Position numbers and translations under genes: made by a program
The notes under the pieces: generated by a model
Databases searched by the model: none
The model's input: only the letters and a program-made list of their open reading frames with translations
What the model was told of the DNA's origin: nothing
Part shown: positions 4,060 to 21,625 of the stretch, in pieces
How positions within the stretch are numbered: the first letter of the stretch is position 1
Layout: the number at the start of each line of letters is the position of its first letter
From: Candidatus Zixiibacteriota bacterium
Lineage (GTDB): Bacteria > Zixibacteria > MSB-5A5 > GN15 > FEB-12
DNA: 64,000 nucleotides
NCBI GenBank assembly: GCA_040756055.1
Contig: JBFLZR010000002.1
Coordinates: 274,411-338,410, forward strand
Direction of reading: 5' to 3'

Positions 4060-5481
4060 TTAAATCTGCGGAAGATAAAAACAAACGACCTTCGGCTCGG
4101 TCATCTCCTGAAGCGAGAATTTCAAGCCTTCCCGGCCGAGACCGGAATACTTGATACCGCCAAACGGCATCGAATCAAGCCGGTAATCGGTCGAATCGTT
4201 AATCATCACCCCGCCACAATCAAGATCATACGAAGCTTTAAAGGCGACATCGACATTGCTCGTGAATATCGCCGCCAGAAGTCCGTATGGAAGAGAATTG
4301 GCTTCCTTGATAGCTTCATCAAGGTCGTCGATAGGATAAAGGTTGACAGTCGGGCCAAAGACCTCTTCACAATGTATCGTGATATTCTTCGGCACATTCT
4401 CCAGCACCGTCGGCTCAAACAACGCTCCCTTTCTCTTGCCGCCGGTAAGCACTGTCGCGCCCTTCTCCCTGGCCTCATTCACCCACTTCTCGACCCGGAT
4501 AGCCTCCGCCTCCGTAATCATCGGACCCATGTTGGTATCGTCTTTGAGCTTGTCACCGATCTTGTACTTCTTGGTGCTCGCCACGAACTTCGTCTTGAAC
4601 TCATCATAAATTTCTTTGTGAACCAGAAGACGCTGCACGCCGATACAGTTCTGCCCGGCTGCCCAGAAAGCGCCGGAAACACACGATTCCACCGCCAGAT
4701 CGATATCAGCGTCCTTCCACACAATTACCGGCGAGTTAGAACCAAGCTCCATACCGATTTTCTTTATCCCGGCCAGCTTCGCAATACGCTTTCCGGCCTC
4801 GACACCGCCGGTGAACGAAATCATCCGCACTCTTTCGTCCGATACCAGCAAATCGCCGATCTCGTGTCCATAACCGGTGATCACCTGTATCGCCTGCGCC
4901 GGAAGTCCCGCTTTCACCATCGCCTCGACCAGCTTTATCGCCGAGAGAGGCGTCACCGTCGCCGGCTTCAAAATAACCGCGTTCCCCGCCGCTATCGCCG
5001 GACCCAGCTTGTGAGCCACCAGGTTCAACGGATCATTAAACGGCGTAATCGCCAGAATTATCCCTATCGGAAAACGATAGTAATACCCCCGGCGCTTCTC
5101 CCCGCCCGGGAAAGAATCGAACGGAATCGTCTCACCCAGTATCCGCTTGGCTTCTTCCGCCGATGCCGTGATGGTATTCACGCAGCGCCTTGCCTCTTTG
5201 CGGGCCTCCGTGATAGTCTTTGACCCCTCTCTGGCAATCGTTTTGGCGAAATCCTCCAGATTGTCGCTGATAATCTGAGCCGTCTTAAAAAGAATCTGAG
5301 CACGCTCATAAACCGTCATCTTCTTCGTGATCTCAAATCCCTTAACAGCCCCACGAAGGGCTGTCTCCACGTCCTGCTTGCTGCCCGCCGGCACAGTATC
5401 GATTACACTATTATCGTAGGGATCGGTCACGTCGATTTTCTTGTCACGGTCAACCCACTGACCGTCCAGAAGCATCTTCAT
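4060..5481 (-). CDS. NAD(P)-dependent aldehyde dehydrogenase
   Basis: A 473-residue aldehyde dehydrogenase of normal length. Seen: the cofactor-domain stretch ITPFNDPLNLVAHKLGPAIA, AGNAVILKPATVTPLSA, the FTGG motif, the general-base Glu in GMELGSNSPVIVW and the catalytic Cys in WAAGQNCIGVQRL. The closest flavours are lactaldehyde or semialdehyde dehydrogenases of the non-phosphorylating GapN-like group; the aldehyde cannot be read from sequence. The start ATG overlaps the stop of the homoserine-dehydrogenase-like gene (ATGA), so the two are translationally coupled. Aspartate semialdehyde handed over by that neighbour is a reasonable but unproven substrate. It is the last gene of a four-gene operon. 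Confidence 0.87.
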   Translation of the reverse strand: MKMLLDGQWVDRDKKIDVTDPYDNSVIDTVPAGSKQDVETALRGAVKGFEITKKMTVYERAQILFKTAQIISDNLEDFAKTIAREGSKTITEARKEARRCVNTITASAEEAKRILGETIPFDSFPGGEKRRGYYYRFPIGIILAITPFNDPLNLVAHKLGPAIAAGNAVILKPATVTPLSAIKLVEAMVKAGLPAQAIQVITGYGHEIGDLLVSDERVRMISFTGGVEAGKRIAKLAGIKKIGMELGSNSPVIVWKDADIDLAVESCVSGAFWAAGQNCIGVQRLLVHKEIYDEFKTKFVASTKKYKIGDKLKDDTNMGPMITEAEAIRVEKWVNEAREKGATVLTGGKRKGALFEPTVLENVPKNITIHCEEVFGPTVNLYPIDDLDEAIKEANSLPYGLLAAIFTSNVDVAFKASYDLDCGGVMINDSTDYRLDSMPFGGIKYSGLGREGLKFSLQEMTEPKVVCFYLPQI

Positions 5482-6497
5482 CGCTTACCCCCCACGTGAA
5501 TGATATCAATCAGAGCGCTGTAACCGGTCTGGGCGCGGCCTGCCCCCGGACCCACAATCGTAACATCACCCAGGATATCCGTCGTATACGTAATGGCGTT
5601 CGTTCCCCCCATCACCCCCGCCAGCGGGTGCGACAGATCGACCTGCTCCGGCGCCACGCTCGCCTTAACCTTCTCGCCCTCGCGCCATACTTTACCAATC
5701 AGTTTAAATCTCTTGCCACGGGCCTTAGCTTCCTTTATCGCCTCGGCCGTGATCTCCGTAATCCCCTTGCACGGGAAATCAGCCGGACGGGCCTTAACAC
5801 CGAACATCGCGTTCGCTATAATCGTCACCTTCGCCAGAGCATCCCAGCCGAGAACATCGGCATCCGGGACCGCCTCCGCGTATCCCAGTTCCTGCGCCTT
5901 CTTTAGAGCGTCCTCATAACCAAGCCCCTCCTCCATCCGGGTGAGAATATAGTTGGTCGTCCCGTTGAGGATACCTTTTACCTCGTTGATCCGGCAACCG
6001 GCCAGGGTCTCTCTCGCAAGGTTCAGCATCGGCGAACCGCTCATGACTGTTCCTTCGAAGAGAAACTGCACGCCCTTTTTCCTTGCCAGTTCCGTCAGCT
6101 CCTGCAAAAACAGCGCCGCCGGACCCTTATTCGTCGTCGTAACATGCATTCCCTTCTCCAACGCCGCCCTGATGTGCGAAGTCGCCGGCTCTCCGGTCTT
6201 GATATCAGTGTACGTCGCCTCAACCATCATATCCGCCTTGGCCTGCTTAATCATCGCCAGCGCGTCATCATCAAAAGCCTCCGCCAGGTCCGAAAGCTTC
6301 CCCCCCGATTTAACCTTCTCAAGAGCCTTCTGAAGATCCAGGCCGCCGGCGTCGTAAATACTCCCCTTGAGCATATCCGCTATGCCAACCACCCTCGTCT
6401 TCAAACCATACTCTTTTTCGAGCGTGTTTTTCTTCTCGATTAATAACTCGGCCAGGCCCTGACCCACCGTGCCAAAGCCTATTAATAGTAACTTCAC
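5478..6497 (-). CDS. Homoserine dehydrogenase-like oxidoreductase (no ACT domain)
   Basis: I start at GTG 6497, which follows AAAGGAGGAT at ideal spacing; the frame stays open 21 codons upstream but lacks such a site. This gives 339 residues. A Rossmann NAD(P) site (LLLIGFGTVGQGLAELL) opens the protein. Homoserine-dehydrogenase hallmarks follow: TTTNKGPAAL with the catalytic Lys, GILNGTTNYILTRM, and DADVLGWDALAKV with the substrate-binding Asp and the Lys. There is no regulatory ACT domain and no fused aspartokinase, and no threonine or methionine biosynthesis gene lies nearby. Placed between a cupin gene and an aldehyde dehydrogenase, it may work in the oxidising direction on a homoserine-like compound in catabolism. 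That is inference. Confidence 0.83.
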   Translation of the reverse strand: MKLLLIGFGTVGQGLAELLIEKKNTLEKEYGLKTRVVGIADMLKGSIYDAGGLDLQKALEKVKSGGKLSDLAEAFDDDALAMIKQAKADMMVEATYTDIKTGEPATSHIRAALEKGMHVTTTNKGPAALFLQELTELARKKGVQFLFEGTVMSGSPMLNLARETLAGCRINEVKGILNGTTNYILTRMEEGLGYEDALKKAQELGYAEAVPDADVLGWDALAKVTIIANAMFGVKARPADFPCKGITEITAEAIKEAKARGKRFKLIGKVWREGEKVKASVAPEQVDLSHPLAGVMGGTNAITYTTDILGDVTIVGPGAGRAQTGYSALIDIIHVGGKR

Positions 6498-6569
6498 GTT
6501 AGAATCCTCCTTTATGATAGTCACGACCGCAACGGCCCAATTACCGCTCCGGTGCGTCAAAAAAATATT

Positions 6570-6938
6570 CTACTTCTTAACCTGCCACCGATCAGGAGCG
6601 TCGAATACGTCTATCAGGTTCACCCGCGAATGAAAATTCGCCGAATGCACCACCCCCGCCGGTATATAATACCAGTCACCCTTGCGATAACGCTTCGTCT
6701 CCTTACCAATCGTCAGCGACATCTCACCTTCGATCATTATTCCCCACTGGGCACAATGAGAATGAGGCGGAACCACTCCGATCGGCTGAATATCGAAAAA
6801 GACAGCCTGCTTCTCACCGCTCGCCAGAAGCCAGCCGCGAAGACCATCCATCGGAATGTCAATCTCCGGCATGCTGCGAATCATCTCGGGAAAAATCGTG
6901 CCGTCCCACTTCTTCATCAATTCGTCCATCATGATCAT
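6570..6938 (-). CDS. Small single-domain cupin protein
   Basis: A 122-residue protein with one cupin barrel. Motif 1 is seen as PPHSHCAQWGIMIEGE, providing His, His and Glu, and motif 2 as GDWYYIPAGVVHSANFH, providing the last His. This set normally binds one divalent metal. The start is uncertain among ATG 6938 and two in-frame ATGs within 9 nt. The first lies just after the AAAGGA site inside the end of the upstream gene, whose stop it touches, so coupling is likely. Role unknown: cupins next to dehydrogenases are often isomerases, sugar or amino-acid modifying enzymes, or sensors. Confidence 0.78.
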   Translation of the reverse strand: MIMMDELMKKWDGTIFPEMIRSMPEIDIPMDGLRGWLLASGEKQAVFFDIQPIGVVPPHSHCAQWGIMIEGEMSLTIGKETKRYRKGDWYYIPAGVVHSANFHSRVNLIDVFDAPDRWQVKK

Positions 6939-8174
6939 CTATCCTTTATAAGCTATACCGGCGAACCGGGCCTCGTGACCCCGGCGCATTATCTCACGCG
7001 CATCCTTATCGCAACGCACACACTTGTGATATATCACGTCGCCGATAAGCTCCGCCTTCTCATCGCGCTCCTGATCCGACAGGAAATAAGCTTCCATCGT
7101 GTCGTAAGGACGCGATGTTCCATCGCTCTCATACTTGATCGTGATATCCGTCCCCTTATCCAGAACCTTGTGCGCGTTCTCCGTCCAGTCGAAATCCGCC
7201 ATCCCCAGGTCGGGATTAATACGCAAATGCGCTGTGAGCGACACGGGCGGAAGACCCGATGCCTTCAACTCCTCGGCGCACTTTACGAACGTCTCGGGAC
7301 TGGCCGCGTTTCCGATATTTACCTCGTAAATAGGCGTCGTACCATCATCACGCAGATACTCTTTGATTATATTCATCAGCATCCTGAACTGAAGGGCGTT
7401 CTGCGTCGACAAAAGCATCGAAATCTTGAAACTGATCTCGGGAATCTCGCGGGCAAAATAGCACGCCGCTATAATCGTCGACCAGCTCGGATTCAAAAAG
7501 AAACTCGCCCCTGTCTCCATCGCCGCCCGGGTAATTCCATCCAGATAAATCAAATGATTGTTGTCGCCAACCTCGACACCACCGAGATTGCCAAAAGCCG
7601 TACCCATATTCTTGAGAATCAACTGGCTCAGACCATCACCCAGATCCCGACGATCAAACTTATCACCCGTAATCTTCTCCACCCGCTTAAATCGGTGTTC
7701 CGGCATCGGAATCCCGATCAAATTCGTCGAACAAAACTTGCTCGCCCGGATAATATTCTCCGCCATCGCCAGCGTCGCCAGAAGGTCACCCGTGTAAACA
7801 TAATGCTCGGTCAGCGCAACCACCGAAATCATCTCGGTCGGAAACAGCACGTCACGATTCTCGGCCACCCGACGCATACAGTCAAGCGTCACCCGCGAGC
7901 CCTGAAACCCCGAAACCTGCGTGGTACAAACACCCGGCCTGGTAACTCTGACACCTTCCCTGTCGACAAAGTCCTCAACCTTCGGAAAATCCCTGGCATA
8001 CCGTTCGGCCTTTTTAAGCATCTCCCCATAACCCTTCTCAGCGGCCATCTTCTTTCTGGTCTCATATTGCCGCAACTGTTTAATCCTCTCACAGATAGCC
8101 TTCCCTCCGCCAAAGTCGGCGATAAGAGCGTCAATTGCCTTAAGGTCTCTGTCGCTAAGCAGCTTGAAATGCAT
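6939..8174 (-). CDS. Unrecognised 411-aa protein heading the cupin / homoserine dehydrogenase / ALDH operon
   Basis: I do not recognise this family. It has no signal peptide or membrane segment, so it is probably cytoplasmic. Alternating hydrophobic strands and helices (PIYEVNIGNAASPETFVKCAEEL, then PPVSLTAHLRI, then GTDITIKYESDG) look like beta/alpha-barrel units. Candidate functional residues are the CTTQVSGFQGS stretch (about 83-93), the NNHLIYLDG segment, HLRINPDLGMADFDW, and a late Cys pair CVRCDKDA. It starts at ATG 8174 after a GGGAGAG site and is the first gene of the operon, so it may supply the substrate for the two dehydrogenases. A lyase, mutase or aldolase role is only a guess. 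Confidence 0.7.
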   Translation of the reverse strand: MHFKLLSDRDLKAIDALIADFGGGKAICERIKQLRQYETRKKMAAEKGYGEMLKKAERYARDFPKVEDFVDREGVRVTRPGVCTTQVSGFQGSRVTLDCMRRVAENRDVLFPTEMISVVALTEHYVYTGDLLATLAMAENIIRASKFCSTNLIGIPMPEHRFKRVEKITGDKFDRRDLGDGLSQLILKNMGTAFGNLGGVEVGDNNHLIYLDGITRAAMETGASFFLNPSWSTIIAACYFAREIPEISFKISMLLSTQNALQFRMLMNIIKEYLRDDGTTPIYEVNIGNAASPETFVKCAEELKASGLPPVSLTAHLRINPDLGMADFDWTENAHKVLDKGTDITIKYESDGTSRPYDTMEAYFLSDQERDEKAELIGDVIYHKCVRCDKDAREIMRRGHEARFAGIAYKG

Positions 8175-8549: not shown

Positions 8550-8607
8550 ATTGGCCGGCGTCGCGCTCAGCACGCCTCAAAAAGGGTCGCATACAAAGAG
8601 GATACTT

Positions 8608-11600
8608 ATGAAGGACAGCACGCGCGTACTGATCACACTACTGTCATTCATAACATTGTTTGCATGCGCCTCGGCACAGGACATGCCTCATGAAGAAATG
8701 GACTTCGACTGCGAAGTCTGCCACTCCATGACCGAGTTCAAAGGCGTTCAGTTCGACCACACCGCCAATACCGGCTTCACCCTCGAACATCGACACGCCA
8801 ATGTCGAATGCAAATCATGCCACAATGTCAAAGACTTCTCCATAATCGATACTGAATGCATGTCTTGCCACAGAGACATCCACGAAGGGAAGCTTGGCCC
8901 TCTGTGCGAAAAATGCCATACTACCCGGGGCTTTGAAATATTCAATATCGAAGATATTCACGCCGAAACCAATTTCCCCATGATGGGCCGCCACGCCCAG
9001 GTCGACTGCCAGAGCTGCCACAAAGGCCTGCCACGCGGCGACCTCTCCTTCAATACCACCCGATGCGTTGAATGTCACCAACAAAATTATATCGAAGTCG
9101 CCAGCCCCAACCACGTCGCCGGAGGCTTCCCAACCGACTGCAGCGAATGCCACCAGATGAACTCCTGGCAGCCGGCCATGTTCGCAAACCACGATGCCTT
9201 CTTTCCCATCTTCTCGGGAGAACACGCCGGTGAATGGGATGAATGCTCCGACTGCCACATCGACCCTGACAACTTCCTCGTCATAAGCTGCCTCAACTGC
9301 CACGAACACAACCGTCAGGACACCGATGACAACCACGAAGGCGTCCCCGGATACAATTATGATACTCAGGACTGCCTGATCTGTCACCCCGGTGGACGGG
9401 CGGGCCAATTTGTCGAACACGATGCCCTGTACTTCCCTATCTTCTCGGGCTCGCACGCTGGCGAGTGGGATGGCTGCTCCAACTGCCACGACAACCCGGC
9501 CGACCGAACCATGTTCAACTGCCTGGCTTGCCACTTCCACAACGAAACTGACATGAACAACATGCATCAGAGTATCAGCGGCTACTCCTACGTGAGCACC
9601 GCCTGCTTCTCATGTCATCCGGCCGGCGAAGGAATCGAGTTCACCCAGCACGATGCCGCCTACTTCCCCATCTACACCGGTACCCATTCCGGCGTCTGGA
9701 CCGAATGCTCCAGTTGCCACACCGAACCGACCGACCGCAGCGTCTTCAGTTGCCTCGGATGCCATGGCCAGACCGAAACCAACACCATCCACCAGGGCAT
9801 CAGTACTTACGCCTGGGAAAGCACTGCCTGCCTCACCTGTCACCCGACCGGCGCCGGCGGCGATTTCCTTGAACACGATGTTCTCTTTTTCCCCATATAT
9901 TCCGGCACTCACAGCGGCGTATGGGATGCCTGCTCGATATGCCACACCGATCCCAACGACCGAAGCGTCTTCAGTTGCCTGACCTGCCACTCCGAAGCCG
10001 AAACCAACCCGATTCACGGCGGAATAACGGATTACACCTACGAGAGCACCGCCTGCCTCACCTGTCACCCGACCGGCTCCGGAGGTGAATTCCTCACCCA
10101 CGATGCGGAGTACTTCCCAATCTATTCCGGTACTCACGCCGGAACCTGGAACGATTGCATCACCTGCCATTTCAACCCCGACGATCGCTCCCAATTCACC
10201 TGCCTGGTCTGCCACGAGCAATCGACGGTTGACCCCGTCCATACGGGCATGACAAGCTACAGTTACGAAAGTACCGTCTGTCTGTCCTGCCATCCGCAAG
10301 GTGTCGTAGGGGATTATCTCGAACACGATGCCGACTTCTTCCCGATATACAGCGGCCCCCACGCCGGCTCCTGGGCCGAATGCGCCACCTGCCACACCGA
10401 CCCGGCCGACAGATCCGTCTTCTCCTGCCTGGTCTGCCACAACCAGACTGACACCGATGACATGCACACCGGCATAACCGGCTACGTATATAACAGCACC
10501 GACTGCATTACCTGTCACCCGACCGGCGAAGAAATAGAATTCACCGAACACGAACTCTCCTACTTCCCGATCTACTCCGGAGCGCACGCCTCCGTCTGGA
10601 CCGAATGCGCCACCTGTCATCCCGTGCCCGGCGACAGGACAGTATATGACTGCCTCTCGTGCCACGAGCAGACTACTATCGACGGCCTCCACCTCGGCAT
10701 GCTCAGCTACAGTTACGCAAGCACCGCCTGCTACGGCTGCCACGCCTCTGGATCCGTCGAGGACTATCTCGAACACGATGCCGCTTTCTTCCCCGTCTAC
10801 TCCGGCACTCACTCCGGGCAGTGGACAGAATGCGCCTCCTGCCACACCGACCCGACCGACAAATCCGTCTACACCTGCCTCGGTTGCCACGAGCAGACCA
10901 CCATCGACGGTATCCACCTCGGTATGCCAGGCTATAGCTATCAAAGCTCTGTCTGTCTCACTTGCCACCCCTCCGGTGTCATTGAAGATTATGTCGAGCA
11001 CGACGGCGCCTTCTTCCCCATCTATTCCGGCACCCACTCCGGACAATGGGTCGATTGCTCCAACTGCCACACCGACCCGACCGATAAATCCGTCTTCACC
11101 TGCTTGACCTGTCACGAACAGTCAACTATCGACGGTATCCACCTCGGTATGCTCAGCTACTCCTACGAATCCTCCGCCTGCTTCAGCTGTCACCCGACTG
11201 GTGTTGTCCAGGACTACCTTGAACACGATGGCGCTTTCTTCCCCATCTATTCCGGCACTCACGCCGGACAATGGGTCGATTGCTCCAACTGCCACACCGA
11301 CCCGGCCGATAAGTCTGTCGTTGATTGCCTCGGATGTCACGTCCAGGCCCCCATAGATGTAATTCACCAGGGCATGCTCAGTTACAGTTACGTAACCTCG
11401 GCCTGCCTGACCTGTCACCCCTCTGGAGTTGTCGAGGATTATCTCGAGCACGATGGCGCCTTCTTCCCGATTTACACCGGCCCGCACGCCGGAGCCTGGG
11501 TGGACTGCGCCACCTGTCACACTGACCCGGCCGACAGGTCCGTCTTCAGCTGCACCGTCTGCCACACGCAGACCGATATGGATAACATGCACACAGGCAT

Positions 11601-12354
11601 TACCGGATATGTTTACAACAGCAGCGACTGCCTCACCTGCCACCCTGTCGGTCAGGCTATTGAATTTACCGAACACGAACTGCTCTATTTCCCGATTTAT
11701 TCCGGCGCCCACGATGGCGTCTGGGACGAGTGCGCCACCTGCCACACGGTCGTCGGTGATCGCACGCAGTTTAGCTGCCTGTCCTGTCACGAGCAGGCAA
11801 CCGCCGATATCGTCCACATGGGTATGCCCGAATACAGCTACGCCAGCGATGTATGCTATAGCTGCCATCCGCGGGGAGTCCCCGAGGACTACCTGCAGCA
11901 CGACGTCAACGGCTTCTTCCCGATATATTCAGGCAACCACGATGGCGTCTGGGCTCAATGCGCCACCTGCCACATCGACCCGAACAACCGGTCCGTGTTC
12001 ACCTGCCTGGTGTGCCATACTCAGGGAGTAATCGACCCCGTGCACCTGGGCATGCCGGAATACAGCTATGAATCGAACGTGTGCTATAGTTGCCACCCCG
12101 GCGGAGTCATTGAAGACTACCTCTCGCACGATACCTACTTCTTCCCGATTTACTCAGGAACTCACGATGGTCGTTGGTCCACCTGCGCCACATGTCATAT
12201 CGACCCGATGGATAAGAGCGTATTTTCCTGTTTGGTTGGTTGCCACCCCAAAACCTCGACCGACGCTAAACACTCAAACCCAACTCCCGTTTCCGGATAC
12301 GTGTATGACAGTTACGAGTGTTACAACTGCCATCCCACCGGATTGGCCCCGTAA
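8608..12354 (+). CDS. Giant multihaem c-type cytochrome, 49 haem-binding motifs, 14 tri-haem repeats
   Basis: I start at ATG 8608, just after AAAGAGGA, giving 1248 residues with a signal peptide (STRVLITLLSFITLFACASAQ). Cleavage is either after ASA or, if LFAC serves as a lipobox, at the Cys. I count 48 CXXCH motifs plus one CX3CH (CLVGCH) in the last repeat. Seven lie in the N-terminal ~160 residues. The rest sit in 14 tandem repeats of about 75 residues, each with three CXXCH. Every repeat I checked also has three further His (in xHDxxxFPIYSG, SGxHxGxW and xIHxGM), one per haem, so bis-His coordination is likely. No enzyme domain is visible. An electron conduit or storage wire in the periplasm or at the surface is inferred. 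The barrel gene follows after 13 bp. Confidence 0.93.
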   Translation: MKDSTRVLITLLSFITLFACASAQDMPHEEMDFDCEVCHSMTEFKGVQFDHTANTGFTLEHRHANVECKSCHNVKDFSIIDTECMSCHRDIHEGKLGPLCEKCHTTRGFEIFNIEDIHAETNFPMMGRHAQVDCQSCHKGLPRGDLSFNTTRCVECHQQNYIEVASPNHVAGGFPTDCSECHQMNSWQPAMFANHDAFFPIFSGEHAGEWDECSDCHIDPDNFLVISCLNCHEHNRQDTDDNHEGVPGYNYDTQDCLICHPGGRAGQFVEHDALYFPIFSGSHAGEWDGCSNCHDNPADRTMFNCLACHFHNETDMNNMHQSISGYSYVSTACFSCHPAGEGIEFTQHDAAYFPIYTGTHSGVWTECSSCHTEPTDRSVFSCLGCHGQTETNTIHQGISTYAWESTACLTCHPTGAGGDFLEHDVLFFPIYSGTHSGVWDACSICHTDPNDRSVFSCLTCHSEAETNPIHGGITDYTYESTACLTCHPTGSGGEFLTHDAEYFPIYSGTHAGTWNDCITCHFNPDDRSQFTCLVCHEQSTVDPVHTGMTSYSYESTVCLSCHPQGVVGDYLEHDADFFPIYSGPHAGSWAECATCHTDPADRSVFSCLVCHNQTDTDDMHTGITGYVYNSTDCITCHPTGEEIEFTEHELSYFPIYSGAHASVWTECATCHPVPGDRTVYDCLSCHEQTTIDGLHLGMLSYSYASTACYGCHASGSVEDYLEHDAAFFPVYSGTHSGQWTECASCHTDPTDKSVYTCLGCHEQTTIDGIHLGMPGYSYQSSVCLTCHPSGVIEDYVEHDGAFFPIYSGTHSGQWVDCSNCHTDPTDKSVFTCLTCHEQSTIDGIHLGMLSYSYESSACFSCHPTGVVQDYLEHDGAFFPIYSGTHAGQWVDCSNCHTDPADKSVVDCLGCHVQAPIDVIHQGMLSYSYVTSACLTCHPSGVVEDYLEHDGAFFPIYTGPHAGAWVDCATCHTDPADRSVFSCTVCHTQTDMDNMHTGITGYVYNSSDCLTCHPVGQAIEFTEHELLYFPIYSGAHDGVWDECATCHTVVGDRTQFSCLSCHEQATADIVHMGMPEYSYASDVCYSCHPRGVPEDYLQHDVNGFFPIYSGNHDGVWAQCATCHIDPNNRSVFTCLVCHTQGVIDPVHLGMPEYSYESNVCYSCHPGGVIEDYLSHDTYFFPIYSGTHDGRWSTCATCHIDPMDKSVFSCLVGCHPKTSTDAKHSNPTPVSGYVYDSYECYNCHPTGLAP
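9190..12345 (+). repeat. 14 tandem ~225-bp repeats coding tri-haem units
   Basis: Coding tandem repeats inside the cytochrome gene with a period of about 225 bp (75 codons). Each begins at the HD of xHDxxxFPIYSG and ends after the third CXXCH and its Pro-rich tail. Units 8 to 11 (about 10.8-11.5 kb) are close at nucleotide level, for example in ttccccatctattccggcac, which points to recent duplication. Outer units are more diverged. The region is prone to copy-number change and to assembly collapse. Confidence 0.9.
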
Positions 12355-12367
12355 GCAGAGGTAAACG

Positions 12368-13978
12368 ATGAGATCAATAGTAACCTTCATAGCATCCATC
12401 CTCATCGCGGTGACTCTTGCGGGACCGGCCCAGGCCGCCGGCAATTGCAGCCAACCCTGCGTAACCTATATCTCTGCCGAGGGCGTCTATCTCGACGGTG
12501 GCCTCTCGTCAGGGTTTGATGTCGACGATACCGTGGCCTTCATTAGGGACAAAAAGACTATCGCGATCGGATTCGTGACCAAAGTAGCTGAATACGCCGC
12601 CGCCACCGAAGTTGCGCACCAAACGTGCCCCGTGCAGGTTGGCGACATTGCCGCCAGAATTTCCGATGTGCCGCGGCTTACTCTGACGTCCACCGCCGCG
12701 TTCGTCGAACCGGCCAGAGCTCCACACCCGGAGGCAACGTCGACTATAAACCAAAAGCCCGGTCCGCCGCCTCACCTAAGAGGCTCCATATCTTTCGAAA
12801 ACTACTATCACAACGACCTGACCGACACCGACTACGATCGCACCCAGCCCGGCGTCAAAACCAAACTCGAAATCGAAAATATCACCGGCGACGTCTCGTT
12901 CAAGATGCGTCACCGCACTCGCCTGTACCATCGCTCAAAAGCCTATAGCATCGGACAGGACACCGACGAATGGATCCACCAGGTTTATGAACTGGGATTC
13001 TTTCACGAGGTCGAAGGATCGAAGGCTGAATGGGCTATCGGAAGGGTTCTTTCACCCTATGTGCGCGGCATCGGCTATGTCGATGGCGGCTACCTCGCTC
13101 ATCAAATACATCGCAATTTCAAGATCGGACTCGCGGGCGGAACAGCCCCCGACATGGTCTCGTCGGAACCCAACTTCGATCGCAGAAAATTCGGACTCTT
13201 CGCGGCCTTCGAAACCGGCGCCTACCAAACCCGGCGCCTGGCCTTTACCGCTGCCGTCTCCACCGAATACGACCGTTCCACCGTCAGCCGCGATTTCCTG
13301 TACTTCCAGGCCACCTTTTCAAAGTATCAACTACTGTCACTCTATCAGTCCGTGGAAATCGACTTCAATCGCGATTGGAGATACGATAAAACCGGCGACC
13401 GATTCACCTTCACCAATTACTACGCCAACGCCACCATCAACATCACCAAAGATGCCTCGGTGTTCTTCTCCTACGACGCCCGCAAAAACATCCGCTATTT
13501 CGAAACTATGGATACACCCGACAGCCTGTTCAACGACGACTACCATCAGGGAATCAGAGCCGGACTCAACCTGCGCTTCACGGACCGCATTAGTTTCCGG
13601 GGCAACGCCGGAATACGCTTCCGCGACGGATTACCCGAGGACAACAGATTCGTCTCGGCCACGCTCCGTCTCTCGCGATTCCCGCTGCCGAAACACTCGA
13701 TGACGCTCATGATGTCAATCGTCGAAACACAATTCACCACCGGCTATCGGCCAATGATCACCTATCGTCTGCCAATCTCCCGACGGTTGGCCTTCAATAT
13801 CACCGGTTCCAGCTACATTTACAAAACCGGCTCCAAAACAACCAGCTATTACTACGCCGACGCCAGCACATATTATTCTTTCGCCCGCAGATACTATTTG
13901 GCCGGAACCTTCCGCCAATACTTCGACTCCCGACTCAAATCTGTGGAACTTCGCACTGAGCTCGGAATCCGACTCTAA
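12368..13978 (+). CDS. Outer-membrane beta-barrel protein, candidate porin partner of the cytochrome
   Basis: A 536-residue protein with a clear signal peptide ending PAQAAG. Residues about 25-95 form a small beta-rich domain with a CSQPC pair near the mature N-terminus (VTYISAEGVYLD, then DVDDTVAFIRDKKTIAIGFV), reminiscent of SH3-like folds. From about residue 130 to the end, amphipathic strands with many Tyr/Phe/Arg alternate with short turns, and the last strand ends SVELRTELGIRL, typical of an outer-membrane barrel. It lies 13 bp after the cytochrome stop with its own AGAGGT site. By analogy to porin-cytochrome conduits (MtrB-like) it could carry the cytochrome or electrons across the outer membrane. 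I see no direct MtrB homology. Confidence 0.72.
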   Translation: MRSIVTFIASILIAVTLAGPAQAAGNCSQPCVTYISAEGVYLDGGLSSGFDVDDTVAFIRDKKTIAIGFVTKVAEYAAATEVAHQTCPVQVGDIAARISDVPRLTLTSTAAFVEPARAPHPEATSTINQKPGPPPHLRGSISFENYYHNDLTDTDYDRTQPGVKTKLEIENITGDVSFKMRHRTRLYHRSKAYSIGQDTDEWIHQVYELGFFHEVEGSKAEWAIGRVLSPYVRGIGYVDGGYLAHQIHRNFKIGLAGGTAPDMVSSEPNFDRRKFGLFAAFETGAYQTRRLAFTAAVSTEYDRSTVSRDFLYFQATFSKYQLLSLYQSVEIDFNRDWRYDKTGDRFTFTNYYANATINITKDASVFFSYDARKNIRYFETMDTPDSLFNDDYHQGIRAGLNLRFTDRISFRGNAGIRFRDGLPEDNRFVSATLRLSRFPLPKHSMTLMMSIVETQFTTGYRPMITYRLPISRRLAFNITGSSYIYKTGSKTTSYYYADASTYYSFARRYYLAGTFRQYFDSRLKSVELRTELGIRL

Positions 13979-14395: not shown

Positions 14396-14400
14396 ATGTT
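14342..14400 (+). promoter_or_regulatory. Conserved 5' leader shared with the paralogue
   Basis: This 59-nt segment, including the ribosome site GAAAGGAG and the start codon, aligns without gaps to 18233-18291 upstream of the second paralogue. A short stem (GTTCC at 14345-14349 with GGAAC at 14365-14369) is visible. The second copy can form a similar stem with other pairs. It may be a translation-control element or just a remnant of duplication. Confidence 0.5.
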
Positions 14401-17400
14401 TAGGAGATTCACAACAATTGCCGTTGTCTCCGCCTTGATGATTGCATTCCTGGCGGCGCTAACCTTTGCCGCCCAAAACAAAGGTGATGTCAACAAGGCC
14501 TCACGCCTCGGCCAGACTGACTATATGGCCCAGGCCTACTCTTTTGGCGAACAAAAAAAAACCGGCCTTGAAGCTACCGGCAAAAAAGGCGTGATATCGC
14601 TGGGCGATGTTTCTTACTCCGCTTCCAGCGCCTCACCCGGACAAACGGTCGGCACCAGCTACTATGACTACCAGCACAACTGCTCCATGGGCCGCATGAT
14701 CGAAACCGGCCCGCACTCGGGTGTCACCGGCCCGGCGGTGGTCCATTTCAGCTGGATGTACATGGCTTCTGCCGACGACCTCGGCCAGGCGCGATCCTAC
14801 GCCTACAACGCCTATAGCACGGCTACCCACCAATACGCCGGTGCACACATTCTCCACGACGACGAATACTCCGGCTACGTCAACATCGACGTCACTCCGG
14901 ACAACCGCGGTATCGTCGGCGGTCACACCGATGTTCACGGCCCGGTAAAATACCAGGCCCAGATGCACTTCGATGACTGCTCGACATGCGAAGACTTCGC
15001 GGCCTTCTCCCGCATCCCCGACAGTCTGGCTGCCTACGATCAGGAAGGCGACCTGGAAGCCATGTGGCCCAAGTTCCTCTTCCAGTTCGGTACCGACACC
15101 GTACTTCACGTCATTACCCACAACTGGGATTACTACGGCGCTCAGATGTATTTCCGATGCGTAGGCTACGAAGGTCAGGGCGTGTGGGATTACCCGCCGT
15201 ATGTCGTGGATACCAACCAGTGTATGGCCCACGACCTCACCGGCCCGCGCGTCGGTGACAAGGTCGGCCTGGCCTGGCTGGCCAGTCCCCCTTATCAGGA
15301 ACCATGGTGTGATACCTGCTCCGGACTGACCGTCTACGATGGTCTCCTCGCCGGTCAGTATGACAACGATGTCTACATCCAGATATCCGACGACCAGGGT
15401 GTTACCTGGCAACCCAAGAAAAATCTCACACAGCTGCAAATCGGAGAACCCGGATACAGAGCCTACTGCGATCTCTCAGTCGTGTTTGACAGCGACGAAA
15501 ACCTGCACGTCGTCTGGAACGGCACCCCCTGGCCCGCCGACACCTGTATCGACGCCGGCGGCCTGTGCTTCACCGAAGACTGGTGGCTGGATCCGGCAAG
15601 AATCTTCCACTGGTCCGAGAATATGCCCTACGTCCGCACCGTGCACGATGCCACTTGGCTGCCAAGCGATAGTTGCGGCCCACCGCACTTCTGGTCGGTC
15701 CAGGTTGCCAAAATGTCCATCTCCGAATGTAATGGCCGTCTCTACTGCCTCTTCACTCAGTTCAACGATGTCCCTGGCGGCGTCGATGACGACTGCGCCC
15801 AGTGGGGATATGACCAGAATAGATGGCCCGGTCCGGCTAACGGCGACTTGTGGATGTGCATCTCGGCCGATGGCGGCATGACTTGGGACGCCGCCCGTAA
15901 CCTGACCAACTCCTACACCCCACACTGCGACCCGCTCCTCGGCGAAGTCTGTCAGAGCGATTACTGGGCCTCCATGACACGCTGGGGACGGCAGGTACAA
16001 ACCGGTGAAGATTGGTCCGCCGCTGAAATCGTCGACCCCTCGGGCGGTACCTCCCCCACCGATTACTACCTCGACGTCCAATACGTCAATGACCTCGACG
16101 CCGGCACACCCATCTGGGGTGACCCTGACGCCGAAGGCTCATGGACCAACAATCCCATCAAGTGGTTCCGCGTACCATGCGTCGAAGAAATCCGCCTCTG
16201 TAACCCGGTCTTCTCCCCGCGTCAAATTGATGATCCGGCCTGGACCAAACCCGGCGTGCAATTCGATACCGCTATCGTAGTTGAGAACATCGGTAACGCC
16301 GACTATACCTACTCCATCAGCGTCGAAGAAGACAACGGTACTCCCGGATGGCTGGGCGTGGGCAGTTATTCCGGAAGCATCCCCTCCGGACTCGGCAACA
16401 CCGAAACCGTGGAGATATCTCTCAACAACGGCGGTGTTCAAACCGAACAGATCGAGTTGATCGGAAGAGTTCTCTTCAACGGTAATCATCCCAGTTCACC
16501 GCATATCATCCCTATCAACTTCTTCGTCGTCGACACCATGATCTGGCCGAGTTTCGACACCGTCCACACCAACTGTCTCGCGTTGATCTGCGGCAACAAC
16601 GGCAATATCGGTCACGATGGCACCCCCGGTGTCACCATGGATTACATCCGTTCGGCTGACTGTGATCCCGAGGCGGTCAACTATATGTATGATGGCTCAG
16701 CCCTGGTCGGCTGGATTGACGGTACCGACACCATCTTCAATTATGCCATCTGGGGCGCTTTCTTCACTTCTGATGACTGCTTCCGTCCTCAGGGCGGCCG
16801 CATCAACACCACCGAGTGTCTACCCCTGAACGCCGAGGTCTACCACTCCGGCGTTTTCAGCACTCAGGACTCGACCATTGCCCTTGAGAAGGTAGTCGTG
16901 GCTCCTCTGGATAATTGCCCGTTCATCATCGAGTACCTGCGGGTTTATTCTTTCGACGGTCTGGCCCACACCGGTCTCATGATCGGAGAAGCCATCGACT
17001 GGGATATTCCGTATGACTACCGAGATGACGACACAGCCGCAGCCACCTGGGATGTCTGCAACTACGGTGGAGCCGACCCCGTCAGGGCTCTGCTTTACCA
17101 GCAGGGCTACGAGGCTACCTGGGATGATGGAGTCGAGGGTGAGGATTGTCAGGAGAACTCGGATCGCTTCGGCGGCAGTGCCTTTATCGAGTCCTATTTC
17201 AACGGCAGTTTCGCTGCCGGCGGACCTTACAGCGGCTTCGTCGGTGAAAACGATTCTCTTCAGACGGCGACCGGATTCTACGCCGGCAGGCTGTATTATG
17301 ATCTGGCCCAGTCCGGTTTCACGGCCACCGACTCAATCGAGGACTTGCACACGGCCATGTGTTTCACCCCCTCGCTCGATCTCGGCGCCACCGATTACTA

Positions 17401-17767
17401 CGAGGTGGTGACGGTCCTGGCTACGGTTCACGAGGGTACCCTGGCTGACCTGCAGGCAAACATCGATGCCGGCAAGGCCTGGTACACCGCCAACGGCGGC
17501 ATGACCATATTTGCCGATGTCAACCGCGACGGCGGTATTGACCTTTGCGAAAGCTGCTGTCAGATTATGGGTGACCTCAATGACGACGGCTACCTTGACC
17601 CGCTGGATATCACCTTCTTCGTGAACTGGCTGTGGAAGGGTGGTCCGTCACCGATATGCGAAGACGTAGTTGATGTCAACTGTGATCTGGCTGCTGATCC
17701 GCTGGATCTGACTTATCTGGTCAACTATGTCTGGAAGGGCGGCCCGCCACCTTGCGGCTGCCATTGA
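14396..17767 (+). CDS. Secreted Asp-box (sialidase-fold) protein with C-terminal dockerin-like repeats, paralogue 1
   Basis: A 1123-residue protein with a signal peptide (TTIAVVSALMIAFLAALTFAA). The first ~600 residues contain Asp-box motifs of sialidase-type propellers (SDDQGVTW and SADGGMTWD). Around residues 605-715 an Ig-like/BACON-type domain is suggested by VVENIGNADYTYSISV. The C-terminus carries two dockerin-like EF-hand units: DLNDDGYLDPLDI with canonical calcium ligands, then a poorer DVNCDLAADPLDL, each followed by a VNWLWKGG or VNYVWKGG tail. No sialidase Arg triad is evident and the protein is Cys-rich, so a binding or surface role is as likely as catalysis. Start at ATG 14396, 6 nt after GAAAGGAG. 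It is very similar to the protein at 18287 along its whole length. Confidence 0.85.
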   Translation: MFRRFTTIAVVSALMIAFLAALTFAAQNKGDVNKASRLGQTDYMAQAYSFGEQKKTGLEATGKKGVISLGDVSYSASSASPGQTVGTSYYDYQHNCSMGRMIETGPHSGVTGPAVVHFSWMYMASADDLGQARSYAYNAYSTATHQYAGAHILHDDEYSGYVNIDVTPDNRGIVGGHTDVHGPVKYQAQMHFDDCSTCEDFAAFSRIPDSLAAYDQEGDLEAMWPKFLFQFGTDTVLHVITHNWDYYGAQMYFRCVGYEGQGVWDYPPYVVDTNQCMAHDLTGPRVGDKVGLAWLASPPYQEPWCDTCSGLTVYDGLLAGQYDNDVYIQISDDQGVTWQPKKNLTQLQIGEPGYRAYCDLSVVFDSDENLHVVWNGTPWPADTCIDAGGLCFTEDWWLDPARIFHWSENMPYVRTVHDATWLPSDSCGPPHFWSVQVAKMSISECNGRLYCLFTQFNDVPGGVDDDCAQWGYDQNRWPGPANGDLWMCISADGGMTWDAARNLTNSYTPHCDPLLGEVCQSDYWASMTRWGRQVQTGEDWSAAEIVDPSGGTSPTDYYLDVQYVNDLDAGTPIWGDPDAEGSWTNNPIKWFRVPCVEEIRLCNPVFSPRQIDDPAWTKPGVQFDTAIVVENIGNADYTYSISVEEDNGTPGWLGVGSYSGSIPSGLGNTETVEISLNNGGVQTEQIELIGRVLFNGNHPSSPHIIPINFFVVDTMIWPSFDTVHTNCLALICGNNGNIGHDGTPGVTMDYIRSADCDPEAVNYMYDGSALVGWIDGTDTIFNYAIWGAFFTSDDCFRPQGGRINTTECLPLNAEVYHSGVFSTQDSTIALEKVVVAPLDNCPFIIEYLRVYSFDGLAHTGLMIGEAIDWDIPYDYRDDDTAAATWDVCNYGGADPVRALLYQQGYEATWDDGVEGEDCQENSDRFGGSAFIESYFNGSFAAGGPYSGFVGENDSLQTATGFYAGRLYYDLAQSGFTATDSIEDLHTAMCFTPSLDLGATDYYEVVTVLATVHEGTLADLQANIDAGKAWYTANGGMTIFADVNRDGGIDLCESCCQIMGDLNDDGYLDPLDITFFVNWLWKGGPSPICEDVVDVNCDLAADPLDLTYLVNYVWKGGPPPCGCH

Positions 17768-18232: not shown

Positions 18233-18291
18233 ACAGTTCCGCGAGGAGCTCGTTGCGAACACTTTTACTCTCGAAAGGAGCGATGAATGTT
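18233..18291 (+). promoter_or_regulatory. Conserved 5' leader, second copy
   Basis: It aligns without gaps over 59 nt to 14342-14400. The ribosome site GAAAGGAG is identical, and the loop region between the stem arms has diverged most. Substitutions change both arms of the predicted short stem, so pairing is kept in a shifted form (GTT/AAC plus CGC/GCG). Confidence 0.5.
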
Positions 18292-21200
18292 AGGTAGAGT
18301 TACAACCATCCTGGTTGTCTCCGTGCTCGTAGTTGCCGTTATGGCAATGACAGCATTTGCGGCCCAGACAGCGGCCAAAGGCAAAGCATTCAAGAAAATG
18401 AGAGGCGCTCAGGCTTATTCCTTCGACGATGGTCATGGGATGAGCCAACCTAACGGCGAACAGAGAGGTCATAGTACCCTCGGAACAGTCCAGTATTTCT
18501 CCTCGTCCGCATCGCCAGGGAGAATCGTTGGCGGTACCGTCTATGAGTACCAGCACAACTGTTCCATGGGACGAATGATCGAGACCGGACCGCATTCCGG
18601 AATCACCGGCCCGGCAACAGTGCACTTCGGCTGGATGTACATGGCTACAGCCGAAGACTTCAACCACTACCGATCCTACGCCTACAACGCCTACAGCACC
18701 GCCAACCACCAGTACGCCGGGGAATATGTCCTACATGAAGACCCCTATTCAGGCTACGTCAACGTGGATGTAACGCCCGATAACCGTGGTATCGTCGGTG
18801 GCCATACCGATCTCCACAGTTCCATACCGTATCAGCCGCAGATTCACTTTGACGCCTGTTCGGCTTGCGAAGACTTCGCCGCCTTCGTGCGTGTCCCCGA
18901 TTCTGTCGCGGGTTACCCGGCAGAAGCAGCTGAAACCTCCTGGCCGAAATTCTTCTTCCAGTTCGGATCCGATACCGTACTTCACATAGCTGCTATGGAA
19001 GACGCCGGACGCCTCTATATGAAGTATTTCAGGTGCGTTGGCTATGAGGGCGTGGGCACATGGGACTATCCCCCCTATGTCATCGACACGGTCGAAGATA
19101 TCGCTCAAGATATCACCGGTGAGAGACTCGGTGACCGCGTCTGTATGTCGTGGTTCGCCTGCCCGCCATATCAAGAACCATGGTGCGATACCTGCTCCGG
19201 ACTGCCTACCCCCGGATACGATGGTACCGGATGGGCTCAGATGGACAACGATATATACATCCAGACTTCCGATGATCAGGGCGTAACGTGGAATCCCCGA
19301 CAGAACATAACCAACGTGGGGCCCTATGGCGAACCCGCCTGGAAAGCCTATTGTGATGCTTCCATCCTGTTTGACCAATCCGGTTATCTCCACCTCATTT
19401 GGCACGGATGCCCGTGGCCGGCTGACCCGGAACTCGACGCCATATTCGAGGAAGATTGGGACCAGGTCGAAGCCCGTCTGTTCCACTGGTCCGAAAACGT
19501 ACCGTACATCCGTACTATCGCGGACCACAACTACTCGTCCGGCGATAGCTGCGGACCTCCGATCTGGGGTATTAACGTCGCCAAGATGACTCTATCTGAA
19601 TGTGACGGTAAACTCTATGCCCTCTTCACCCAATTTAACGACATCCCGAACAATGTCGAAAACGACTGCGCCGAATGGGGTTATCCCGATGTCTACTGGG
19701 GCGCCGCTAATGGCGACCTCTGGGTGTCCATATCCTCCGACGGCGGTATGACGTGGGATGCCCAACGTAACCTGACCAACTCCTACAGCCCCCATTGCGA
19801 CCCCGTAGCTGGCGAAGACTGCCAGAACGACTACTGGGCCTCAATGGTACGCTGGGGACGTCAGGTGCAAACCGGTGAGGACTGGTCCGCCGCCGAAATC
19901 GTCGACCCGTCCGGCGGGGCATCTCCGACCGACTTTTACCTCGACATCCAGTATGTAAACGATATCGACGCTGGCGGTGCCGTACAGGACGAAGGCACCT
20001 GGCAGTACTGCCCGATCAAATGGTTCCGCATGCCGTGTGTTGAGCCCGTCGCCGCGCCGCTGGCTATTTTCACTCCTACCAGGTACGGCGATCCGGCCTG
20101 GGGTCACCCCGGTGAGCAGGTCGACTCGTTCATCACAATCGAAAACGCCGGTAACATGGAACTCAACTGGACCGCCACGGTCGAAGAATACAACGGCGCT
20201 GCCGGTTGGCTGCGAATGGGAAGCTACGCCGGCACCATCCCCTCGGGCATGGGCAACGTTGCCACGGCCGAAGTCATCTTCAACTATGGTGGCGCCCAGA
20301 CCGAACACATCGTGCTCGAAGGTGCTCTGGTTTTCAACGGTAACGATCCGAAATTACCTAAGACCATACCGGTTAGTTTCATAGTCACCGACACCGTCCA
20401 ACCTCCCGTTTTCGACACCGTTCACACCGATTGTCTGGCCCTGATGGTGTCGTCGACCGGGAATATGGGTAACAGCGGCCGGGCCGGAGTTACAATGGAC
20501 TACATCAGATCCGGTGACTGCGATCCCAACGCTACCAATTACCTGTACGACGGTTCTCCCGTCATTGGGTGGATTAACGATGGCGACACGGCCTTCAACT
20601 GGGCCATTTGGGACGCCACCTGGCTTAACGACAAAGGCTTCCGCCCACAGTACGGCGAACTGCCGACCAAAACTTGTGAGCCCCTCAATGCCGAGGTGTT
20701 CCACTCCGGTATATTCACAACACACGACACCACGATCGCATTCGAGAAAATCTCCGTCGCTCCGCTGGATGACTGTCCATTCGTCCTGCAGTATATGAAA
20801 GTATACTCGTTTGACGGCAATGCTCATTCCGGCCTCATGATCGGCGAAGGAATCGACTGGGATATCCCGTGGGATTACCACGACGATGATCCCGAAGGCG
20901 ATGTCTGGACCGTGTGCAACTATGGCGGCTTTGATGTCACCAGAAGCCTCGTGTACCAACAGGGATATGAGGCATCCTGGGATAACGGCGATCCTGATGC
21001 CGACTGTCAGAGAAACGATGCTCGCTTTGGCGGCAACGCCTTTGTTGAATCATACTTCAACGGCGCTCACGCCGCCAGCGTCCCCTACAGCGGTTTTGTC
21101 CAGGAAAACGAACTGCTGCAGAGTGTCGATGGCTTCATAGCTGGTCTCTTTTACCAGGAGATGATGAATCCGGGCTTGTCCGCCACCGACTCTATTGAAG

Positions 21201-21625
21201 ACCTGCACTCGGCCATGTGCTTCACACCCTCGCTGGACCTCGGCGCCACCGACTACTACGAGGTTGTGACGGTTCTGGCCACAGTACATGAAGGCGATCT
21301 TGGGGATCTGCTGGCCGCCGTTGACGCCGGCAAGGCCTGGTACACCGCCAACGGCGGCATGACCATGTTTGCCGATGTCGATGGCGAAAACGGAATCGAC
21401 GTATGCGGGTTCTGCTGCGAAATCATGGGCGACCTCAACGACGATAAGTATCTCGACCCGCTGGATATCACCTTCTTCGTGAACTGGCTGTGGAAGGGTG
21501 GCCCGCCACCGCCTTGCGAAGACCAGGTCGATGTTAACGGCGATGGAGCCGATGACCCGCTCGATCTTACCCATCTTGTAAACTATGTTTGGAAAGGCGG
21601 CCCACCACCGGTGCCATGTCAATGA
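18287..21625 (+). CDS. Secreted Asp-box (sialidase-fold) protein with C-terminal dockerin-like repeats, paralogue 2
   Basis: A 1112-residue paralogue of the preceding protein with the same order: signal peptide, N-terminal Asp-box region (SDDQGVTWNPRQN, SSDGGMTWDAQRN), BACON/Ig-like domain (ENAGNMELNWTATVEEYNG), a conserved middle block (CDPNATNYLYDGSPVIGW) and two dockerin-like units. Here the second unit keeps better calcium ligands (DVNGDGADDPLDL) than in paralogue 1. No cohesin gene lies in the window, so the dockerin-like tails may serve surface attachment or only structure. It begins at ATG 18287, 6 nt after GAAAGGAG, and is followed by two hairpins. Confidence 0.85.
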   Translation: MLGRVTTILVVSVLVVAVMAMTAFAAQTAAKGKAFKKMRGAQAYSFDDGHGMSQPNGEQRGHSTLGTVQYFSSSASPGRIVGGTVYEYQHNCSMGRMIETGPHSGITGPATVHFGWMYMATAEDFNHYRSYAYNAYSTANHQYAGEYVLHEDPYSGYVNVDVTPDNRGIVGGHTDLHSSIPYQPQIHFDACSACEDFAAFVRVPDSVAGYPAEAAETSWPKFFFQFGSDTVLHIAAMEDAGRLYMKYFRCVGYEGVGTWDYPPYVIDTVEDIAQDITGERLGDRVCMSWFACPPYQEPWCDTCSGLPTPGYDGTGWAQMDNDIYIQTSDDQGVTWNPRQNITNVGPYGEPAWKAYCDASILFDQSGYLHLIWHGCPWPADPELDAIFEEDWDQVEARLFHWSENVPYIRTIADHNYSSGDSCGPPIWGINVAKMTLSECDGKLYALFTQFNDIPNNVENDCAEWGYPDVYWGAANGDLWVSISSDGGMTWDAQRNLTNSYSPHCDPVAGEDCQNDYWASMVRWGRQVQTGEDWSAAEIVDPSGGASPTDFYLDIQYVNDIDAGGAVQDEGTWQYCPIKWFRMPCVEPVAAPLAIFTPTRYGDPAWGHPGEQVDSFITIENAGNMELNWTATVEEYNGAAGWLRMGSYAGTIPSGMGNVATAEVIFNYGGAQTEHIVLEGALVFNGNDPKLPKTIPVSFIVTDTVQPPVFDTVHTDCLALMVSSTGNMGNSGRAGVTMDYIRSGDCDPNATNYLYDGSPVIGWINDGDTAFNWAIWDATWLNDKGFRPQYGELPTKTCEPLNAEVFHSGIFTTHDTTIAFEKISVAPLDDCPFVLQYMKVYSFDGNAHSGLMIGEGIDWDIPWDYHDDDPEGDVWTVCNYGGFDVTRSLVYQQGYEASWDNGDPDADCQRNDARFGGNAFVESYFNGAHAASVPYSGFVQENELLQSVDGFIAGLFYQEMMNPGLSATDSIEDLHSAMCFTPSLDLGATDYYEVVTVLATVHEGDLGDLLAAVDAGKAWYTANGGMTMFADVDGENGIDVCGFCCEIMGDLNDDKYLDPLDITFFVNWLWKGGPPPPCEDQVDVNGDGADDPLDLTHLVNYVWKGGPPPVPCQ

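Follow-up and report, generated by a model that had tools for sequence, protein, structure and literature searches.

The window, i.e., the whole stretch of 64,000 nucleotides that was analysed, contains on its forward strand a gene for an exported multihaem cytochrome (gene B) and, directly downstream after a gap of 13 bp, a gene for an outer-membrane barrel protein (gene C) that had been overlooked in the original prediction (Table 1). The 48 CXXCH motifs and single CX3CH motif attributed to the 1248-residue product of gene B were all recovered when its open reading frame was counted, and a signal peptide was present, whereas sequences shuffled from the same composition yielded a mean of 0.61 and a maximum of 5 CXXCH motifs (2000 shuffles). 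The first seven haems constitute a separate head, so that the anatomy of B is 7 + 14 × 3 = 49 haems, at 25.0 aa per haem. Scanning the region for promoters, terminators, and Rfam families yielded nothing further.

Table 1. Features of the cytochrome and barrel genes, with positions in the window
Feature	Position	Strand	Basis
Ribosome-binding site AGAGGA before ATG 8608	8597..8602	+	Sequence
Gene B, 49-haem cytochrome, 1248 aa	8608..12354	+	ORF; Pfam Cytochrom_CIII / Cytochrome_C7 above cut-off
Signal peptide, probable cleavage ASA/QD	8608..8676	+	Inference and orthologue comparison
Seven-haem head, invariant, haem spacing 33/16/16/34/19/25	8677..9189	+	
14 three-haem units, spacing 34-35/15/26-30, CX3CH in last unit	9190..12351	+	
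Units 6-10, apparent five-unit duplication block	10327..11451	+	u6/u11 80%, u7/u12 69% (aa)
CX3CH motif CLVGCH of last unit, residue 1208	12229..12246	+	
Ribosome-binding site AGAGG of gene C	12357..12361	+	Sequence
Gene C, 536-aa outer-membrane protein	12368..13978	+	
N-terminal six-strand domain of C, probably periplasmic	12458..12658	+	AlphaFold2 model; location inferred
22-strand beta-barrel of C	12773..13972	+	AlphaFold2 mean pLDDT 85; Foldseek

The 14 units that follow the head measured 71–77 residues and began at about position 9190, in agreement with the units of about 75 residues proposed beforehand. Their mean column identity was 61%, with the haem Cys and His residues and the GxH and DxxHxG motifs being invariant and the HD/HE junction nearly so, and the His residues of these three elements supply the candidate distal ligand that had been postulated for each haem. 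The accompanying claim of exactly three extra His residues per unit, in contrast, needed correction for units 1 and 2, which have four non-haem His residues (the fourth of which is not conserved), but stood for the other units. The CX3CH motif of the last unit was also found in the B orthologues of three relatives (G001–G003). Neither a catalytic domain nor an obvious open haem was found in the B sequence, and its array is acidic (pI 4.7, Lys+Arg 1.8%), cytochrome A (see below) being near neutral. An AlphaFold2 model of the B head with six units (38-row alignment) reached a pLDDT of 53 and a pTM of 0.23, which is too poor for haem distances.

B orthologues share the mature start AQ-D/E-MPH. 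Since Cys20, located in the signal peptide and the sole Cys of B outside the haem motifs, is not conserved in these orthologues, B is probably not a lipoprotein; indeed, no lipid anchor was seen in B or its orthologues, and B has no recognisable secretion signal except the signal peptide. Elsewhere in the window (54318–56069), a protein with lamin-tail domains carries a CHU_C type IX secretion sorting domain, so that the organism may possess an export route resembling type IX.

The barrel of C was modelled with AlphaFold2 using 30 homologues, and Foldseek matched it at low TM-score to PapC/FimD ushers and OprD-type porins. The likeness to PapC/FimD (TM below 0.5) was set down to generic large-barrel similarity. 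Within the phylum, cytochrome B was present in 30 of 146 genomes, every one of which also encodes barrel C, whereas 113 of the 116 genomes lacking B lacked C as well (Fisher p 4e-28, kinship ignored); the three genomes with only the barrel have it, at least in some cases, on fragmentary contigs. Both genes adjoin in the examined loci, save where a contig end falls between them and in G002, where the cytochrome is immediately followed by a masked stretch and has the barrel 17 kb upstream of it (L087 / L088), pointing to either rearrangement or misassembly. This barrel gene directly downstream places B in a porin-cytochrome system. Moreover, the four minus-strand genes upstream (4060–8174) show synteny across all four genomes that represent the genus, indicating that the B–C pair is an old resident at this locus. 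Beyond the barrel lie two tandem paralogous genes for secreted proteins of ~1115 aa with C-terminal dockerin-type repeats (14396–17767 and 18287–21625), which had no match in the stretches fetched beside the barrels of the congeners.

Length of B in three-haem steps

Comparison across relatives revealed that the B family consists of an invariant 7-haem head followed by n three-haem units, n ranging from 1 to 22 and the number of haems thus from 10 to 73. The values of n, taken from intact or nearly intact arrays, were 1, 3, 4, 5, 6, 7, 9, 10, 11, 12, 14 (the window), 15, 16, 20, and 22, and the haem spacing in the relatives was 32-36/16/16/34-35/19/25 for the head and 32-35/15/25-28 for the units. 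Exceptions to this 7+3n rule were limited to single lost motifs (G002, G044, and G058), one frame broken in two (G113), and a head enlarged by two haems (G003); the genomes are mostly metagenome-assembled, and some of the broken arrays may be sequencing errors. The largest B found (L117:6525-12035; G118) has 73 haems (7+3x22) in an 1836-aa frame and is accompanied by a 17-haem partner and a barrel. In G102 (L114:6654-10732), two tandem B genes of 43 haems (n=12) and 10 haems (n=1, consisting of the tail-type unit only) precede one barrel.

The last unit of B is always of the FPIYSG type. It is this tail type that was multiplied in the lineage of the window, and the FPLTGAH type that was multiplied in other lineages. 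Array length differs among sister species whose barrels are alike, n being 14, 10, 11, and 9 in the window, G001, G002, and G003, respectively, 20/22 in G103/G118, 16/12 in G096/G113, 4/7 in G011/G016, and 7/3 in G006/G048. The idea that length can be tuned by repeat number therefore holds in the sense of tuning in evolution, by whole three-haem steps among relatives.

Five-gene clusters and resemblance to PCC3

In its canonical form elsewhere, the B–C pair is part of a five-gene cluster encoding a membrane protein (IMP), cytochrome A, cytochrome B, barrel C, and an FAD/4Fe-4S oxidoreductase, the latter being situated upstream of IMP in some variants. Clusters with A, IMP, and oxidoreductase were found in at least 20 relatives and on an Emticicia plasmid. 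The IMP has five hydrophobic segments, an SGxxG motif, and two WX3HX13H motifs, and these features were present in the clusters of 23 relatives as well as in a second, complete five-gene cluster (one W varying there) with a 16-haem B in the genome of the window itself (G000:C1:108.8-115.7 kb; L105:4805-11728). That genome also has another large cytochrome (L121:5179-8385; G000:C6), whose 1068-aa frame contains 42 CXXCH motifs; a 6-haem and a 10-haem gene come after it. Cytochrome A had 17 or 20 haems in 22 of 22 A genes (L090-L120; sd 1.3), as opposed to the 10–73 haems of B (sd 16.4). Across the same 22 genes, A thus also steps by three haems, with no number in between.

For the barrel, a plasmid search retrieved Emticicia only, i.e., plasmid pEMTOL02 of Emticicia oligotrophica DSM 17448 (L133:9808-18504), which carries IMP, an NAD(P)-binding protein, an A of 23 haems, a B of 40 haems (7+3x11), and C, beside a CcsA cytochrome-maturation gene. 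Plasmid matches in Variovorax, Bradyrhizobium, and Pontibacter comprised a 7-haem cytochrome, an HX13H membrane protein, and a 2Fe-2S or FAD-binding oxidoreductase; since the fetched stretches had no barrel gene, these were set aside as relatives of the inner-membrane part only. Cytochrome A and IMP are both absent from the locus in the window, and G001–G003 likewise have no A orthologue and no IMP, G001 and G003 being single-contig genomes of 95–96% completeness, in which B–C, if functional, would have to do without both.

Haem wires built from repeats in a single chain are already published and are thus not new. GSU1996 consists of four three-haem domains (4x3) whose crystal structure has the haems in line at 3–5 Å edges, and GSU2210 has 27 haems in one chain (PMC10138318), and the extracellular cytochromes of PCC3, which contain repeat units and as many as 85 haems, have explicitly been proposed as molecular wires (PMC5566968, PMC10734462). 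Porin-associated cytochromes that are variable and repeat-rich, together with the wire and capacitor ideas, have likewise been stated before (PMC5566968, PMC10734462, PMC7399161). Zixibacteria, finally, are on record with porin-cytochrome operons (FeGenie; PMC7005843) and are said to have mtrAB without extracellular cytochromes (PMC4411801).

Among the closest parallels by published description is PCC3 of Alpha-, Beta-, and Gammaproteobacteria (PMC5566968; for Gallionellaceae, PMC10734462), which also combines a barrel with a long variable cytochrome, in that case of 10–85 haems at 22–39 aa per haem and with repeats (cf. 10–73 haems in the B family). Elsewhere in the phylum, the likeness extends to the ~21-haem periplasmic cytochrome and the ~300-aa five-helix membrane protein of PCC3, the five helices, SGXXG, and two WX3HX13H motifs being IMP traits of PCC3 and PCC4 (He et al. 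2017; PMC5566968). Differences are that the present systems belong to Zixibacteriota (and the Emticicia plasmid), that the barrel has 22 strands versus up to 42 predicted for PCC3, that an FAD/4Fe-4S oxidoreductase is part of the cluster, and that the window copy comprises cytochrome and barrel only. The window locus thus shares with PCC3 the adjacent outer-membrane barrel and the long variable repeat cytochrome (its extracellular site being putative), but since it lacks A and IMP it is better regarded as a derivative of a PCC3-like system that works in the same manner than as a full member.

Burkholderiales clusters of a 24-haem and a 49-haem cytochrome with a porin (PMC7399161) have two large cytochromes before the porin, as here, and their homologues differ by haem-bearing stretches gained or lost; they come from a different phylum, have an OmbB-like porin, and are likened to B by description only. 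GSU1996 and GSU2210 are also single chains, but with no partner barrel described, and in every domain of GSU1996 one haem is His-Met where the candidate ligands of B are all His; Pfam Cytochrome_C7 was matched in a search with the whole B protein, and the PDB profile match to 3ouq was not significant (E = 0.59). MtrCAB and MtoAB equally pair a porin with multihaem cytochromes across the outer membrane, theirs being ten-haem and of fixed size, and the best family models, those of DmsE-type decahaem and OmcA/MtrC cytochromes, stayed far below their curated cut-offs (67 bits vs. 192 for TIGR03508 and 19 vs. 209 for TIGR03507). New here are the Zixibacteriota version, the 7+3n rule, and the change in array length from one sister species to another while the barrel is conserved, as well as a genus that has the cytochrome and the barrel on their own; a literature search covering few subscription journals returned no report of the Zixibacteriota B family or the 7+3n rule.

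Possible role of the haem array

Judged from its sequence, B probably serves as a wire that conducts electrons, the general type of which is already known: candidate His ligands for all haems and the lack of a catalytic domain make conduction and storage likely, rather than catalysis. On balance, we favour B as the long cytochrome of a PCC3-kind conduit with barrel C, whose chain would carry electrons away from the outer membrane. The docking site of the 7-haem head is most likely barrel C, on it or inside it, and the 14 three-haem units would form a single chain of bis-His haems, presumably packed in line and most likely outside the cell, exchanging electrons with a solid or with another cell and storing charge en route. 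In the canonical clusters, electrons would be exchanged between cytosolic NAD(P)H or ferredoxin at one end and B and C at the other, by way of the FAD/4Fe-4S protein, the b-haem membrane protein, and the periplasmic 17- or 20-haem A, be it to reduce an outside acceptor or to take up electrons from a donor; in the genus of the window, where B–C lies apart from the cluster, another periplasmic partner would have to be used. An A of constant size would suit a gap of fixed width, for instance the periplasm, and a B whose size is free would suit an extension into open space. Moreover, that B and C are kept together where A is missing suggests that it is B which contacts the barrel. TonB receptors with 22 strands hold a plug domain, and a 22-strand barrel should thus have room for a slender cytochrome. 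Tentatively, and with doubts prevailing, the pair in this genus might even be a two-part conduit without the IMP and periplasmic cytochrome of PCC3, in which one polypeptide provides both a barrel plug (the head) and a free wire evolving in three-haem steps.

Alternatively, the whole array might reside in the periplasm as an electron store or lateral bridge, with C being separate or accessory, a reading that we regard as unlikely but worth serious attention. The plain signal peptide and the lack of a lipid anchor in orthologues agree with it, as does the description of the Geobacter single-chain triheme wires as periplasmic capacitors (PMC10138318). A variable n, moreover, would suit a store as well as a wire. 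However, B is strictly paired with an outer-membrane barrel, and cytochrome A already offers a periplasmic chain of constant length. In addition, an extended chain of 49 haems, which would measure about 50 nm if pitched like GSU1996, exceeds the usual periplasm, and relatives have up to 73 haems.

We consider it very improbable that B is the protomer of a polymerising filament such as OmcS, OmcE, or OmcZ. Its profile similarity to PDB 8d9m and 7lq5, which we take to be OmcZ, was weak and not significant (E about 0.3–0.4), and none of the solved filament cytochromes was matched significantly in PDB searches. More generally, searches with the B protein and the unit profile gave nothing significant, the top profile match being a ferredoxin (E 0.07). 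Furthermore, length variation within the chain would spoil a fixed protomer, and a long chain needs no polymerisation for its range.

That assembly inflated the unit number of this tandem array in a metagenome-assembled genome, or that the gene is decaying as in the few relatives with broken copies (split in G113, truncated in G058), is scarcely credible given that all haem motifs are intact, that most unit pairs share 59–79% DNA identity with a longest exact repeat of 41 bp, and that the end units (1 and 11–14) map one to one onto those of G001–G003. The unit copies do not exceed 79% DNA identity; this divergence, together with the short exact repeats, argues against a simple assembly duplication, and differences of mostly 21–41% should allow short reads to resolve the array. 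Arrays of 9, 10, and 11 units were independently obtained in three single-contig relatives. Since the pairs u6/u11 and u7/u12 both match one ancestral pair in G001–G003, units 6–7 appear to be second copies of the pair 11–12, and the extra length in the window looks like a five-unit block duplication.

With the array serving as the long cytochrome of a PCC3-kind conduit, PCC3-type extracellular electron transfer would be extended, down to the detail of sequences, to an uncultured phylum for which a part in iron cycling is suspected, and also to the plasmid of a cultured Bacteroidota member (Emticicia), which is a testable case. How current depends on length in protein wires has so far been argued from few structures. 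With a common head and a common tail separated by 1 to 22 like-built units, the B family constitutes a natural length series of matched proteins, which would let conduction, charge storage, and reach be measured against each other. If the two-part reading is true, it would be a natural series of 10 to 73 haems on one chassis.
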